The translations under genes were made by a program, and so were the position numbers. The notes below the pieces were generated by a model that was given only the letters and a program-made list of their open reading frames with translations, was not told where the DNA came from and did no database searches. A stretch of DNA of 30,977 bases, taken from a virus. Below are positions 11,660 through 25,789 of the stretch, in pieces (positions within the stretch are counted from its first letter, which is position 1; every line of letters starts with the position of its first letter). The DNA lies in IMG/VR virus record IMGVR_UViG_3300033141_001476, positions 1-30,977 of that record. The stretch is one strand, 5' to 3'.

Positions 11660-12062
11660 TTTCCAACCTCTTTATCTTTTCCTTTAGGCTGTCTATTAGT
11701 TCCTCAAGTTCTGTTATGGTGAATTTCTTGTCCTGTCTGCTCTCTTCCTCCAGTTCTTCATCAGCACCTTCCCCATACATTGCGATAATCCGCCTTCTGT
11801 ATTCCAATGTATTGCCGTGAAGGTTGATGTTACAGTTATAACATTGTGCGTGAGTCCCCTTCTCTGAAAATAGATTGGCATTGTGCCTACCTGCTATGAA
11901 ATGCCCCGCCTGAAGGAGCTTAAAGTGATACCTCTTCCCACAGGTTATACAAAGCCCAAAAGAAGCACACCCTGTTGTTTTCAAGCAATCCCTTAAACGG
12001 ATATACCTTGAGAAGAGAACCCAGGCTTTCTTTTTCAGACTAGATATTGTCTTCTTCTTCAT
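11649..12062 (-). CDS. ninG: NinG/Rap-like recombination nuclease
   Basis: A 137-aa protein matching lambda NinG (Rap): AWVLFSRYIRLRDCL, CITCGK (Cys38, Cys41), LQAGHFIAGRHN (His54, His60), HAQCYNCN (Cys74, Cys77) and LHGN, which together form an HNH-type zinc-nuclease core. The C-terminal 40 residues are an acidic coiled coil (ELEELIDSLKEKIKRLE). In lambda, Rap is a structure-specific endonuclease acting on branched recombination intermediates in Red-dependent recombination. Here it lies among replication genes, consistent with that role. The length is shorter than lambda NinG because the N-terminal region is reduced. Confidence 0.88.
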   Translation of the reverse strand: MKKKTISSLKKKAWVLFSRYIRLRDCLKTTGCASFGLCITCGKRYHFKLLQAGHFIAGRHNANLFSEKGTHAQCYNCNINLHGNTLEYRRRIIAMYGEGADEELEEESRQDKKFTITELEELIDSLKEKIKRLESGS

Positions 12063-12078
12063 AACTTTATATCACTCC

Positions 12079-12276
12079 CTACTTCGTTGCCCTGAATAAG
12101 TGTTGCCTTTCGGGAGTTGGCTCAATGATTAGGTTTCCCTCTTTCATTGCTGTAACTATTCCCAATGGCGTAGTAAGCAATCTATCTCCAGAATAATACT
12201 TTGTCCCTAGTGCTAATTCACCTTTCACAGCATCAATAATCAGGATTGCCTTCTCTAATGCTTCCACATTATACAT
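12079..12276 (-). CDS. hypothetical protein
   Basis: A 65-aa protein starting at ATG 12276. Helical N-terminus (NVEALEKAILIIDAVKGELAL), then beta (YYSGDRLLTTPLGIVTAM), ending basic. No recognised family. It lies two bases after the frameshifted gene upstream and before ninG. Confidence 0.5.
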   Translation of the reverse strand: MYNVEALEKAILIIDAVKGELALGTKYYSGDRLLTTPLGIVTAMKEGNLIIEPTPERQHLFRATK

Positions 12277-12278
12277 TT

Positions 12279-12486
12279 CTACCCCCTAAAGTTCCATATC
12301 ACTCTCCACTCCAAATTCCTAGTATCTGATATTAAGTTAATTGTGGCTGCTATAGCCTCCTCACAATTGGAGCAAATACCCTCTAGTTCCTTCAACTTAT
12401 CCGCTAGCCCCCTAGGAACTTGGTTAATAGGATACAACTCCCTTGTGCCTCCTCATAGTTATACCATACGACAATTCTGTCTTCAT
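12279..12486 (-). pseudogene. 69-aa protein interrupted by two apparent 1-base deletions
   Basis: The intact part is readable from TTG 12437 (YPINQVPRGLADKLKELEG, then a CSNC knuckle, then WRVIWNFRG). In another frame just upstream is DRIVVWYNYEEAQG, which has no start codon of its own. Adding one A after ATG 12486 and one G in the GGG run near 12443 gives a continuous 69-residue protein from ATG 12486. Alternatively TTG 12437, eight or more bases after AGGAGG, starts a 52-aa protein and the upstream part is leftover. I favour the broken-gene reading because both halves look protein-like. Confidence 0.45.
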
Positions 12487-12490
12487 AACT

Positions 12491-12676
12491 CTACTTCATT
12501 GCCCTGTAGAATTCCTCTATTTGTTTCGGCGTTTTGCCTTCCAGTCTCATAATTACAACCATCTCAAATGCCTCAGGGTCAAACTTTAATAGCCACTTAT
12601 GCTTACCACAGAAGTAATACCCGTAATCATTCGCCTTAGCATCCCTACCACAGACAAGACAAACCTTATTTTCCAT
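12491..12676 (-). CDS. zinc-ribbon miniprotein
   Basis: A 61-aa protein. CLVCGRDAKAND followed by FCGKH (three Cys plus His) forms a zinc knuckle in the first 30 residues. The rest is helical (EAFEMVVIMRLEGKTPKQIEEFYRAM), with an HTH-like look at KTPKQIEEF. GAAAGGAGAAGGGG precedes ATG 12676. Function unknown; possibly a small DNA-binding regulator. Confidence 0.6.
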   Translation of the reverse strand: MENKVCLVCGRDAKANDYGYYFCGKHKWLLKFDPEAFEMVVIMRLEGKTPKQIEEFYRAMK

Positions 12677-14681: not shown

Positions 14682-15300
14682 TGCTAACCTCCTTCTTGAG
14701 GGGCATTGCCCCACGATGGAGTAGAATGTGCTCCTCTTCCTCTTTTGTAACCCTCATAGTTATAGGATATTTCTGGACAGTATCAGGCAAGTATTTCTCA
14801 TACCAAGAGTAAAACTTCTCAAGCTCATCCACGCTAGATATTGAGTCAGGTCTATCCAGCCTCTTCCTATTTTTTAGTGCTTCATCAATGTCTTCCAATA
14901 CCTCATAGTGTTGCTTGACTTTGGCTAGTATCTGACTTGCTATATTATCCCTATCATCACAAGTCAATCTGTGAGTAGGTTCTAAGCTATCCATCACTTT
15001 CTTTATTTCTGTCAGCAACAATTCATCCTGTTCGTTCACCAGAGCTTTCCTATCTCTTACAGGGTAATCCGTTCCTGTTACTGGAATGTGTATCTTCTTC
15101 TGTTTACTCATAGTTCTACACTTTGATTCTATATCATCTAAGACCTCATCCACATAATCACTTAATAAACCACTAGCACTAGGATTTACTGCTCTAATGA
15201 AACGCCAAAGGTAGCTATGTAATTCCCTGATGTAATCAAAGATTTCTCCATTATGGTCTATCTTATCTTCAGCTATAAAACCTCGTGGTCTGCTCTTCAT
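14674..15300 (-). CDS. hypothetical helical protein
   Basis: A 208-aa protein. The N-terminal half has EIFDYIRELHSYLWRFIRAVNPS and a long acidic helix (YVDEVLDDIESK). The C-terminal half has LLLTEIKKVMDSLEP, VLEDIDEALKNRKRL and SVDELEKFYSWYEKY. All-helical, no Cys pairs, no membrane segments. No family recognised. ATG overlaps the upstream TGA, so it is coupled to the gene at 15297-15647. Confidence 0.6.
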   Translation of the reverse strand: MKSRPRGFIAEDKIDHNGEIFDYIRELHSYLWRFIRAVNPSASGLLSDYVDEVLDDIESKCRTMSKQKKIHIPVTGTDYPVRDRKALVNEQDELLLTEIKKVMDSLEPTHRLTCDDRDNIASQILAKVKQHYEVLEDIDEALKNRKRLDRPDSISSVDELEKFYSWYEKYLPDTVQKYPITMRVTKEEEEHILLHRGAMPLKKEVSNG

Positions 15301-15647
15301 TCTCTACCCCCTTTATTACCCAGATAGTGGGACTTGATTTTGACCCATTCATCATCGCAAATATATCTAGTACTGCTTGTCTCAAGTTCCTCAAATATCT
15401 TCTCAGCTACTTCCTGCCTGGCTTGGTCTATCAGGGGTTGGATTAGAGATTTAATTTCGTCAGTGCTAGTTTCTTTAAGTTCGTGGATTTTATCTGGGGC
15501 AACTGTACCCCAAGACCTCCAAGCTAACAAAGAGCTACTCAGCTGGCTCAATTCCCCACCTATCTTCTCCCTCACCTTATCAATCTGTTCTGTATTAGCC
15601 ATATAGGGTTTATTTATTCCTAAGTCACCTGGCACTGGTACTCCCAT
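15297..15647 (-). CDS. helical hypothetical protein
   Basis: About 116 aa, starting MGVPVPGDLG at ATG 15647, eight bases after AAAGGAGG. A longer frame to 15749 would run into the structured non-coding region and lacks an RBS. Contents: EQIDKVREKIGGELSQL, TDEIKSLIQPLIDQARQEVAEKIFEEL, then DDEWVKIKSHYLGNKG. It resembles the neighbouring helical protein in style. Unknown function. Confidence 0.6.
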   Translation of the reverse strand: MGVPVPGDLGINKPYMANTEQIDKVREKIGGELSQLSSSLLAWRSWGTVAPDKIHELKETSTDEIKSLIQPLIDQARQEVAEKIFEELETSSTRYICDDEWVKIKSHYLGNKGGRE

Positions 15648-15663
15648 TAGATTATCCTCCTTT

Positions 15664-16031
15664 AGTACACTTAGCATTACCCAAGACTCACCACGTGAAG
15701 GTGTGCACTTTGAGTTCTTACCCCGTGAGGCTGGCAGTGGCGATAACACTGAACCATTAACAGCGGACGCCCATCTTTCAGAGCCTCAGCTGAAACCTCA
15801 CAGGGCTTGCCTGAACCTACACTAAGCCATCTTCTGTCCCTTACACAGGGTACAGGCTTACACCTTCCACCCACCACTCAGTTCAGGCCGTACCGGCTAG
15901 TAGCATTACGACACGGTGGTATCTACTATTACGCATCACCCTTTCGGGTAGCCAGTACACTTGCTGGCTCATTTTCACCATAGCCTCCTCATACAGCACA
16001 CTGTCCAGTGCCACTATGTAACCAGCAAGCC
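15664..16031 (-). ncRNA. large structured non-coding RNA candidate
   Basis: About 370 bases with no credible gene, in an operon whose other gaps are mostly under 50 bases. Read on the minus strand it folds by eye into at least ten helices: 16022-16029 with 15960-15967 (8 bp), a GAAA-capped hairpin at 15938-15949, 15923-15928 with 15898-15903, 15913-15916 with 15888-15891, 15873-15877 with 15916-15920, 15855-15859 with 15824-15828 enclosing a CTGT/CCCT stem, 15796-15805 with 15721-15730 (10 bp, one G-U) enclosing hairpins 15776-15781/15790-15795 and 15735-15739/15747-15751, and 15711-15715 with 15686-15690. It is visibly richer in G+C than the flanking genes. It could be a large phage RNA of the GOLLD/ROOL kind, a degenerate ribozyme or group II intron part, or something new; I cannot assign a class. 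Confidence 0.7.
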
Positions 16032-16037
16032 ATTAAG

Positions 16038-16709
16038 TTACCACTCCTTATCTTTTTTAATAGTTTTGTAAAGTTCCTCGCATCTCTTTTCAGTTAGTAT
16101 CTCTTCAGGGTCTACCCCATACTTAGTTAGGAATGTCGCAACATCTTCTACACCGTGATTCTCTAGATACTTGAAGAATCCAGAGACTCGTTCAGCTTGT
16201 TTATCAGTAGTTTGTGCCCCCTGACCACCTTTAGTGGAAGTTCCACCCACAGCCTCCTCAATCTTAGCCACTATCTGTTCTACCGAATGAAGTCGAGACA
16301 TAGCCCACTCAATAGTAGCCCTGTATTCCTTTGTGTCCTTACCAACCATACCTGTTGAGATAAGCTCCACCATACCCTTGAAAGCCACCTGTGCCTCTAT
16401 GCTGTCATTCTTTTCTACCCTGACCTGTGTTTGAGCTTTCTCGGTAGCTTTACTGGCAAGCTCATCCTTGACTACTGTAAAATCTTTAACAAACGGCTTG
16501 CCGTTGAACTCACCCACTTGTAACTTAATAGCCGCACCTTCTTCTAGTAGGGGCCACTTATCCCTGAGAGCACCACCACGCCCCGACTTGACATTGAATT
16601 TATTACCTGCCTTATCAGTAACCTTTTTGAACTCTTTGCCATCGTAGCTATCGTCCTCAACCTTGTCAATTACAACTATGTCTCCATCCTCTATGTTTCC
16701 ATCACGCAT
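16038..16709 (-). CDS. OB-fold ssDNA-binding-like replication protein
   Basis: I use ATG 16709, which overlaps the TAA of the small zinc-ribbon gene (TAATG) and follows GGGAGG. The 223-aa product opens with beta strands typical of an OB fold (DGDIVVIDKVED, KVTDKAGNKFNVKSG, GAAIKLQVGEFNGKPFVKDFTVV; residues about 8-85). A linker and helices follow, and a C-terminal helical piece (GFFKYLENHGVEDVATFLTKYG, EEILTEKRCEELYKTI). Such proteins bind ssDNA or act as recombination mediators in phage replication. That it binds ssDNA is inferred from the fold pattern. Confidence 0.6.
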   Translation of the reverse strand: MRDGNIEDGDIVVIDKVEDDSYDGKEFKKVTDKAGNKFNVKSGRGGALRDKWPLLEEGAAIKLQVGEFNGKPFVKDFTVVKDELASKATEKAQTQVRVEKNDSIEAQVAFKGMVELISTGMVGKDTKEYRATIEWAMSRLHSVEQIVAKIEEAVGGTSTKGGQGAQTTDKQAERVSGFFKYLENHGVEDVATFLTKYGVDPEEILTEKRCEELYKTIKKDKEW

Positions 16710-23345: not shown

Positions 23346-23568
23346 AGTATTTAATCTAAAGCTAACATTATCGGAACTGGTAATACTGATTTATATATAC
23401 CGGTGCTCTAATAACAGCAAGGCGTTTCCTTCTTACAGTACAATAGCCAAAAACTGCCACATCAGCCGCAGAACCGCTATTAGAGTTATCTTATCACTGG
23501 AGAGTAAAAACATAATTCAGATAGATAGAACTAACAGAAAAGCTAATCGTTACCTAGTGACACTGTGA
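23317..23568 (+). CDS. HTH (HTH_36-like) replication-type protein
   Basis: I use ATG 23317, which gives 83 aa; an in-frame earlier ATG overlaps the zinc-ribbon gene further. LTLSELVILIYIYRCSNNSKAFPSYSTIAKNCHISRRTAIRVILSLESKNII is the winged-helix seen at the N-terminus of phage replication initiators and DnaD-like proteins; here the second domain is absent. Palindromes and repeats follow immediately, which would be natural binding sites. Initiator or repressor role is inferred. Confidence 0.7.
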   Translation: MKEYFKVSNRVFNLKLTLSELVILIYIYRCSNNSKAFPSYSTIAKNCHISRRTAIRVILSLESKNIIQIDRTNRKANRYLVTL

Positions 23569-23606
23569 CACTAGGTGGTGACATGATGTCACCAGAACTA
23601 GTGACA
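23553..23606. promoter_or_regulatory. operator-like palindrome cluster
   Basis: GTGACA occurs at 23557-23562, 23565-23570, 23578-23583 and 23601-23606, and inverted as TGTCAC at 23587-23592. The perfect palindrome GGTGACATGATGTCACC (8+1+8) spans 23577-23593, and CTAGTGACA occurs twice. It overlaps the end of the HTH gene. Likely binding sites for that protein or an origin element. Confidence 0.65.
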
Positions 23607-23663
23607 AATGAGCACCACTATAAATAACTAGATAATAACTATATATAAAGAACTAATATGTAT

Positions 23664-23778
23664 AATAGGGTGTTACGCTTCGCTATTAGGGCTTCGCTTC
23701 ACACCCCTATTAGAAAAGAAAAAGAACCTACGAGTAGGTTCAAAGGAAACATATATGGATAATTACTTATATATGTTT
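23664..23778. repeat. three tandem hairpins in an AT-rich non-coding tract
   Basis: AATAGGGTGT (23664-23673) pairs with ACACCCCTATT (23701-23711), with GCTTCGC twice in the loop. GAACCTAC/GTAGGTTC (23724-23741) is a perfect 8-bp hairpin. AAACATATAT/ATATATGTTT (23747-23778) is a perfect 10-bp hairpin. No gene is seen between 23569 and 23907. Confidence 0.6.
23713..23741 (-). terminator. possible minus-strand rho-independent terminator
   Basis: Read on the minus strand, the perfect hairpin at 23724-23741 is followed by TTTTTCTTTT. It would stop leftward transcription entering from the packaging genes, or end an unseen antisense RNA. Confidence 0.45.
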
Positions 23779-23841
23779 CAACGAATTACATAAGTTAGAA
23801 AGTTCCTGGGGCGTCGCACGGGGACTGTAAGGATGCGGTTG

Positions 23842-23887
23842 GTCAACAAGTCAACAAAGTCAACTTTTAGCTACAACCAAAGTCAAC
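23842..23887. repeat. GTCAAC direct repeats
   Basis: GTCAAC at 23842-23847, 23850-23855, 23859-23864 and 23882-23887 (steps of 8, 9 and 23 bases), ending about 20 bases before the next gene. Iteron- or operator-like. Confidence 0.55.
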
Positions 23888-23907
23888 ATTTGTCACGTAG
23901 GAGAGAT

Positions 23908-24381: not shown

Positions 24382-25789
24382 ATGGATAAAAAGGAGCAGT
24401 TATTCAGGGTAGCGGAGGCTCAGGATGATTTATTTTGTTTTCTGAAGTATGTTAAGATACAGGAGCCTGGCGAGTTAAGTTTAGATTATGAATTTATTAG
24501 ACTATCAGTTTATAGATGTAATTAAAGCCAAGCAGATAGGAGTTAGTTGGGCGCTTAGCATTTTTGCCTTATGGACTATTTACTCTAAGTTTGGGTTTAA
24601 TGTACTTGAGATTTCTAAGGGTGACTTAGAATCCCGTGCTTTGTTAGCGAAGTCGAGGGTTGTTTACAACAATTTACCTGAGTGGATGAAGGTATTCACT
24701 CTAGAGCCTAATTCTGGGGAGAAGTTTGGTTTTCGGGAGATAAGGTCGCAGATTTTATCCTTTCCTTCTACAGAGACATCGGGTTTAGGGCAAACAGCGG
24801 GACTCGTTATACACGATGAAGCTGACTTCCATCCTTACTTTAGGGTAAATTTGTCTCACACAAGGGCTACAGTGGCTGACAGTTTAGAAAGGAAACTGGT
24901 TGCTGTTTCTACTGTAGATAAAACCAAGCCTGATTCGTACTTTAAGAAGCATTGGAAAGATGCCAGGGATGGTAAGAATGGGTTTAAGGCTTTGTTTTAT
25001 GGATATGATGTCCGTCCCAACAGAGACCAAGAGTTTTATGATGCGATGGTAAGGGAGAATGAATCCGCTCCTTGGGTTGTGGAAGCAAATTATCCCAGAA
25101 CTTCGGAGGAAGCGTTAAGCCCACTATCGACTCAGTCCTGTTTTAATAAAGACAGGTTGAGTGATTTGTGGGATAAGACCGTAGAACCAGAAACAAGGCG
25201 GGGGTATATCTATGTTTTTTGTCCGCCCAGTATTGGGACTCAATATGTAGGTGGGGTTGATGTTGGTGAGGGGATTGGTAGAGATTATTCGGTTTTGAAT
25301 ATAGTTGGCAGGAGGGGGTTGAATTCAGAGGTTTGTGCTGTTATTTATACCAACAAGGTAGGCACAGCCGAGTTTGCTTACGATGTGTGGAGCTTGTGTA
25401 AGGAATACTTTGGGCCTGAGCTGGTGATAGATAATATAGGTATTGGTAGGGCTGTGATTGACAAACTACGGGAACTGGGTTATACCAGGTTATTCTCAAG
25501 TGAGGCTGATAATAAATTAAAAGCAGGCAGACCAATAACAGGAATAGAAAAGGCGGGTTTTTCTCTTACTCGTCCCAATAAGAGAGAATTGGTAGTTAAG
25601 CTAGTTGAAGCAATAAATGATGGTAGTTTGGTAACACGGTTTAAGCCGCAGGTTAAAGAGATGATGGAATATCAATGGGTTAATGATTACCCAGAGCCGA
25701 CTGGGGCAACTCACGGAGACTTAGTCATCGCCTTGATGTTAAAAGGAAGTGGGTCCATCAGAGAAAGCAAGGGTTTGGATAGGAGGTAG
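24382..25789 (+). CDS. terL: large terminase subunit, frameshifted near the N-terminus
   Basis: The main frame (ATG 24488, 433 aa) has VIKAKQIGVSW (residues 11-21, the variant Walker A of TerL), LVIHDEAD (106-113, Walker B), VGGVDVGEG with Asp258, LVIDNIG with Asp315 and THGDLVIA with Asp411, the last three forming the RNase-H-like nuclease site. The expected N-terminus lies in another frame from ATG 24382 to 24525: MDKKEQLFRVAEAQDDLFCF, KYVKIQEPGELSLDYEF. The frame changes between about 24490 and 24515 and a few codons may be missing. Joined, it resembles a complete terminase ATPase-nuclease that packages DNA through the portal. Indel error or real damage cannot be separated. Confidence 0.88.

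Follow-up and report, generated by a model that had tools for sequence, protein, structure and literature searches.

The window analysed here is the whole 30,977-nt stretch of viral DNA in IMG/VR record IMGVR_UViG_3300033141_001476 (positions 1 to 30,977). In the phage early region of this window, a leftward operon carries, on the minus strand, a 223-codon gene (16038-16709; no family match) and, downstream of it, a gene of 116 codons (15297-15647) that matches nothing in Pfam or PHROG. The stretch between them, 15664-16031 on the same strand, is non-coding: a strongly folded RNA body, about 310 nt long, begins only a few nucleotides past the upstream stop codon and leads into a predicted ribozyme. 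A first-pass annotation, made from the sequence alone, had described this locus as GC-richer than its surroundings, free of ORFs led by a ribosome-binding site (RBS) and placed in the largest gap of the operon, and all of this was borne out. The G+C content of 15664-16031 is 0.519 compared with 0.425 window-wide, the highest among all 368-nt stretches of the window; all six frames across this stretch contain stops, with no RBS-led ORF on either strand; and, by crude gene calls, no other gap in the leftward operon is as large as this one (15648-16037). No consensus promoter was found directly before the window RNA. Most genes around the RNA lack a Pfam or PHROG match, and the terminase large subunit (24488-25789) is very divergent, with a best identity of about 23% to known phages; a search via this terminase in 300 genomes found no host.

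The first-pass annotation overlooked a ribozyme at the 3' end of the locus. The last 55 nt (15718-15664, minus strand) carry the signature of an HDV-like, P4-less (theta-type) ribozyme, with a predicted cut at 15719/15718. P1, P2 and P3 are nested in HDV order, P4 is absent and P1' and P2' are spaced by 12 nt. P1 (15718-15712/15689-15683, AGAACTC/GAGTCTT) is paired at six of seven positions and followed by J1/2 AA, while P2 (15709-15703/15670-15664, AGTGCAC/GTGTACT; 7/7) and P3 (15702-15700/15692-15690, ACC/GGT; 3/3) are fully paired. L3 (15699-15693) reads TTCACGT, and the catalytic C is C15674, inside the GGGTAATGCTAA strand at the start of J4/2. The RBS of the downstream gene, read from the sequence as AGGAGG (15656-15661), follows the last P2 base by 2 nt.

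In a permissive Rfam scan, the best and only relevant match was the F. prausnitzii HDV ribozyme (RF02682, HDV-F-prausnitzii), which aligned over its full model length at 15718-15663 (minus strand; E = 0.0013 over 501 nt, 0.083 over the whole window). The P4 region of this family is missing from the window copy, and its 29.5 bits fall below the gathering score of 44. As a sensitivity control, we scored a theta ribozyme directly 3' of a tRNA-Met in a human gut phage (MT835492.1), which reached 28.9 bits; P4-less theta ribozymes thus score low with RF02682. A structural descriptor composed of the core motif, P1, P2 and the catalytic C matched once in the window, once in the related contig described below and once in 1.8 Mb of shuffled sequence, with no match on unrelated viral and genome loci.

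The first-pass annotation had proposed collecting homologues by BLASTN. With the RNA body as query, blastn in phages and plasmids yielded none, and one relative was found through the ribozyme motif in IMG/VR: phage contig IMGVR_UViG_3300033149_001222 (hereafter L002), which shows mosaic synteny with the window. These two contigs are the only known carriers of the RNA body. No further member came from IMG/VR patterns on domain PA (among the matches listed), on PC, on the PB/PC junction or on the ribozyme plus RBS, from the junction pattern in genome contigs, or from a covariance model (R1) run against phage records that carry theta ribozymes and against 399 genomes from a single phylum. Protein queries P0002 and P0001 likewise led to no locus with the RNA other than those in the window and L002. 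R1 also gave a weak match within the SSB gene of L002 (1375-1476), which was set aside as chance.

Theta ribozymes, minimal delta-like ribozymes of tailed phages, cut in vitro and have been proposed to make tRNA 3' ends; thousands of copies do not adjoin a tRNA, and their role was left open (Kienbeck et al., 2024; PMC10879173). The window ribozyme resembles them in its nested P1-P2-P3 pseudoknot without P4, its L3 of type T[TC]CACGT and its GGGTAATGCTAA strand with the catalytic C. It differs in that it has no tRNA beside it, that it is predicted to cut 1 nt past a structured RNA of 310 nt, and that its P1 contains A1 and one A.C. ARAGORN and the Rfam tRNA model found no tRNA in the window; the region upstream of the L002 ribozyme has none either, and in neither contig does a tRNA 3' end lie within 5 nt of the cut.

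The two ribozymes are 87% identical over 71 nt. Judged by its letters, the L002 copy is a strict theta ribozyme, with a 7-bp P1 that starts at G1 (GGGACTC/GAGTTCT), whereas the window copy departs from the strict form at G1/P1, having A1 and an A.C at the third pair; all tRNA-adjacent ribozymes that we examined differ from the window copy at these P1 positions. Because of A1 and the A.C, the window ribozyme could be slow or inactive. However, between the window and L002, two of the three changed P1 pairs stay standard, and the third goes from G.U to A.C. When protonated, an A.C pair can adopt the same wobble shape as G.U, so the change may be tolerated. The 3' end of the window RNA looks like a largely intact HDV/theta-type ribozyme with only P1 imperfect. 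The earlier suggestion of a degenerate ribozyme came close for this 3' end only, and the catalytic C is present.

The remainder of the RNA is strongly folded, in keeping with the highly structured RNA described in the first-pass annotation. Segment 15719-16031 (minus strand, 313 nt) has a minimum free energy (MFE) of -124 kcal/mol and folds better than shuffled sequence (z = -3.06; 1 of 100 shuffles was equally good). Among 102 minus-strand segments of 313 nt (mean -68.8, sd 11.8), it ranks first by MFE and second by z, and the plus strand of the locus folds less well (z = -1.35). The lowest z of the sampled segments (-4.95) belongs to 23519-23831 on the minus strand, which overlaps a non-coding gap (about 23569-23907).

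We assign the body to 15719-16036 on the minus strand, with a predicted 3' end at 15719 and an approximate 5' end; it is predicted to fold into four domains. PA (15960-16029) is closed by a 10-bp stem (16020-16029/15960-15969; pair probability 0.81-1.0), PB (15890-15958) by 15949-15958/15890-15899, PC (15809-15888) by 15881-15888/15809-15816 and PD (15720-15806) by an 11-bp helix (15796-15806/15720-15730; pair probability 0.95-1.0). The three helices singled out in the first-pass annotation all appear in the window fold with pairing probabilities near 1. Two proved longer than described, the outer stem (10 bp instead of 8) and the long-range helix (11 bp instead of 10), and the GAAA hairpin (15938-15949), which lies within PB, is present as drawn. 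The annotation had also pointed to a 9-bp direct repeat, AGTACACTT, as a possible mark of insertion. The repeat is real, but since one copy is the 3' strand of ribozyme P2 and the other (15954-15962) is unconserved in L002, we do not read it as an insertion mark.

In L002, the RNA is shorter (2417-2611) and the ribozyme starts at G2612. The order PA-PB-PC is the same in both contigs, and either body folded alone gives the same three-stem order (z = -3.06 in the window and -2.71 in L002); PD, between PC and the ribozyme, occurs in the window copy only. The predicted cut nevertheless lies 1 nt past the last closing helix in each case, that of PD in the window and that of PC in L002. When the L002 RNA and ribozyme were folded jointly without pseudoknots, a competing fold appeared. 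The PA stem (L002 2419-2428/2485-2494) has one pair changed from G-C to G-U and another mismatched as C.A, the PB stem keeps 10 of 10 pairs, with a compensatory double change in one and one-sided changes in three, PC keeps 8 of 8 pairs, and the PB/PC junction GGTACRGCCTGAACYGAGT is nearly invariant. In all, 7 of the 28 closing pairs of PA, PB and PC differ and six of these seven stay paired, one via the double change; sliding the partner strand by 1-3 columns lowers pairing from 98% to 17-40%. A covariation shuffle test with two rows only was not significant (251/500). Such a test has no power at two sequences, and we therefore claim structural consistency and not proof; covariation support for the body, as read from this alignment, is modest. 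Nor does the body behave like a protein-coding gene, which the first-pass annotation had named as an outcome that would count against an RNA: the forward frames are broken inside the L002 RNA, and no conserved open frame exists in the window or L002.

Comparison with known classes left the body without a family. The first-pass annotation had raised GOLLD, ROOL and self-splicing introns, but the Rfam models for GOLLD, ROOL, group I and group II gave no match even at E = 10. Since the body matches no Rfam family, we take it to be neither GOLLD nor ROOL nor an intron, in line with the annotation's other suggestion of a large structured RNA of a possibly undescribed class. Like GOLLD and ROOL, it is a large folded phage RNA without known function; it differs from them in lacking an Rfam match at E = 10, in being about half their size and in lying outside a tRNA island (PMC12286853). 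Two further candidates were ruled out: a remnant of a tRNA array, since the tRNA-sized domains (69-87 nt) have no tRNA match and PB is just 44 nt in L002, and a circular RNA from paired ribozymes, since the window holds a single ribozyme.

The RNA and ribozyme do not depend on particular neighbouring genes. In both contigs the RNA begins a few nucleotides past the upstream stop codon and an RBS follows the ribozyme by 2 nt (2669-2674 in L002), yet the flanking genes differ on both sides. Upstream, the slot of the 223-codon gene is taken in L002 by an unrelated ERF recombinase gene; downstream, the L002 homologue of the 116-codon gene is 90% identical, but an additional ORF of 88 codons lies between it and the ribozyme. 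Because RNA and ribozyme are kept while neighbours change, the module looks more like a stand-alone RNA gene than a gene-specific leader. L002 also has a promoter-like site (TTGACA-18-TAAAAT with a TG extension, 11 of 12 sigma-70 positions) that ends about 14 nt before PA. The 88-codon ORF is absent from the window (15602-15664, compared with L002 2669-2950), and a GGAGGA RBS stands at both ends of the missing piece; this arrangement suggests that the ORF was lost or gained by recombination between the two GGAGGA sites.

We think it probable, if far from certain, that the locus encodes a phage early RNA, about 310 nt long, with a 3' end generated by the theta-type ribozyme, which would also give the next mRNA a new 5' end. 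During leftward transcription of the early operon, the ribozyme would fold while being made and cut at 15719/15718, one nucleotide past the last closing helix. This would free an RNA with a defined, structured 3' end (a 2',3'-cyclic phosphate). The other product would be an mRNA with a 5' hydroxyl and the ribozyme as its leader, and this leader would stop 2 nt short of the next gene's Shine-Dalgarno sequence. The ribozyme would then act for a large RNA as theta ribozymes are proposed to act for phage tRNAs. We infer that cleavage occurs at this position and that, of the products, the freed RNA is the one with a function; that it acts in trans is a guess.

The same ribozyme could instead serve the mRNAs. 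The folded domains would then be the 3' UTR of the upstream gene, the ribozyme would split the operon into two mRNAs, the helix beside the cut would block 3' exonucleases and the RNA would have no function of its own. The start of the RNA right after the upstream stop codon in both phages fits this account, as does the PD helix, which at the cut outdoes all 150 random positions; other HDV-like sites without a tRNA also often show a helix ending a few nucleotides from the cut, and two such sites, L184 2967 and L178 9607, come soon after an ORF. Yet half of the other sites give only a weak helix-at-cut signal, the strong promoter-like site just upstream of the L002 RNA argues against a 3' UTR, and a multi-domain body of 195-310 nt with near-invariant junctions far exceeds what a protective hairpin needs. 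We regard this account as unlikely. We give still less credence to a cis-regulatory leader in which the folded RNA and its ribozyme would govern how the downstream gene is translated, in the manner of a ribozyme-based riboswitch: the ribozyme does stop 2 nt short of the Shine-Dalgarno sequence in both phages, but the conserved bases outside it lie mostly in PA-PC, far from the RBS, and the first downstream gene differs (the extra ORF in L002), which leaves the RNA without a fixed partner gene. That a once active RNA-ribozyme module is now decaying in the window phage is very improbable, for although its P1 is imperfect with A1 and the body diverges faster than the neighbouring genes (73% mean column identity compared with about 92-94%), P2, P3, L3, the J4/2 strand and the catalytic C remain intact, no segment of the minus strand folds more stably than the body, and the P1 changes relative to L002 leave two of three pairs standard, with the third going from G.U to A.C.

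If the locus encodes an RNA released by its own ribozyme, the list of candidate phage RNA classes grows by one, with a 3' boundary predicted at single-nucleotide precision. Conservation of a structured RNA right up to a predicted cut would also supply a concrete role for theta copies without a tRNA, that of making the 3' ends of large phage RNAs, and hints at the purpose of the many tRNA-free copies in phages. We found no paper in the literature describing theta ribozymes attached to large RNAs. More broadly, theta-type ribozymes might be a general phage 3'-end maker for large structured non-coding RNAs and not for tRNAs alone, with the window RNA as the first described partner class and two further contigs (L184 and L182) following the same practice, a generalization that we offer tentatively and would not bet on.

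In our sample of nine other IMG/VR sites with the strict theta motif, seven directly follow a tRNA, showing the normal use of the cut position. The L184 and L182 sites are unrelated in sequence to the window RNA. L184, a 301-kb phage contig, carries two HDV-like ribozymes 400 nt apart (minus strand, 2568-2967); the intervening stretch lacks any ORF of 60 codons and folds with z = -3.46, an RBS follows the second ribozyme, and from this layout the 400-nt stretch could be released as a free RNA. In L182 (plus strand, 11972-12643), a theta-type ribozyme (cut at about 11972) stands just before a ROOL RNA (12037-12643, E = 2.2e-61) and may therefore shape ROOL on its 5' side; the ribozyme is itself preceded by an unassigned stretch of 247 nt (z = -2.00). 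A general rule that a helix ends at the cut of isolated HDV-like sites was weakly supported when we tested it. The descriptor also found HDV-like ribozymes with no adjoining tRNA in L178 (minus strand, 9607 and 8362) and L179 (plus strand, 6636), and a predicted helix ends near each of these cuts.
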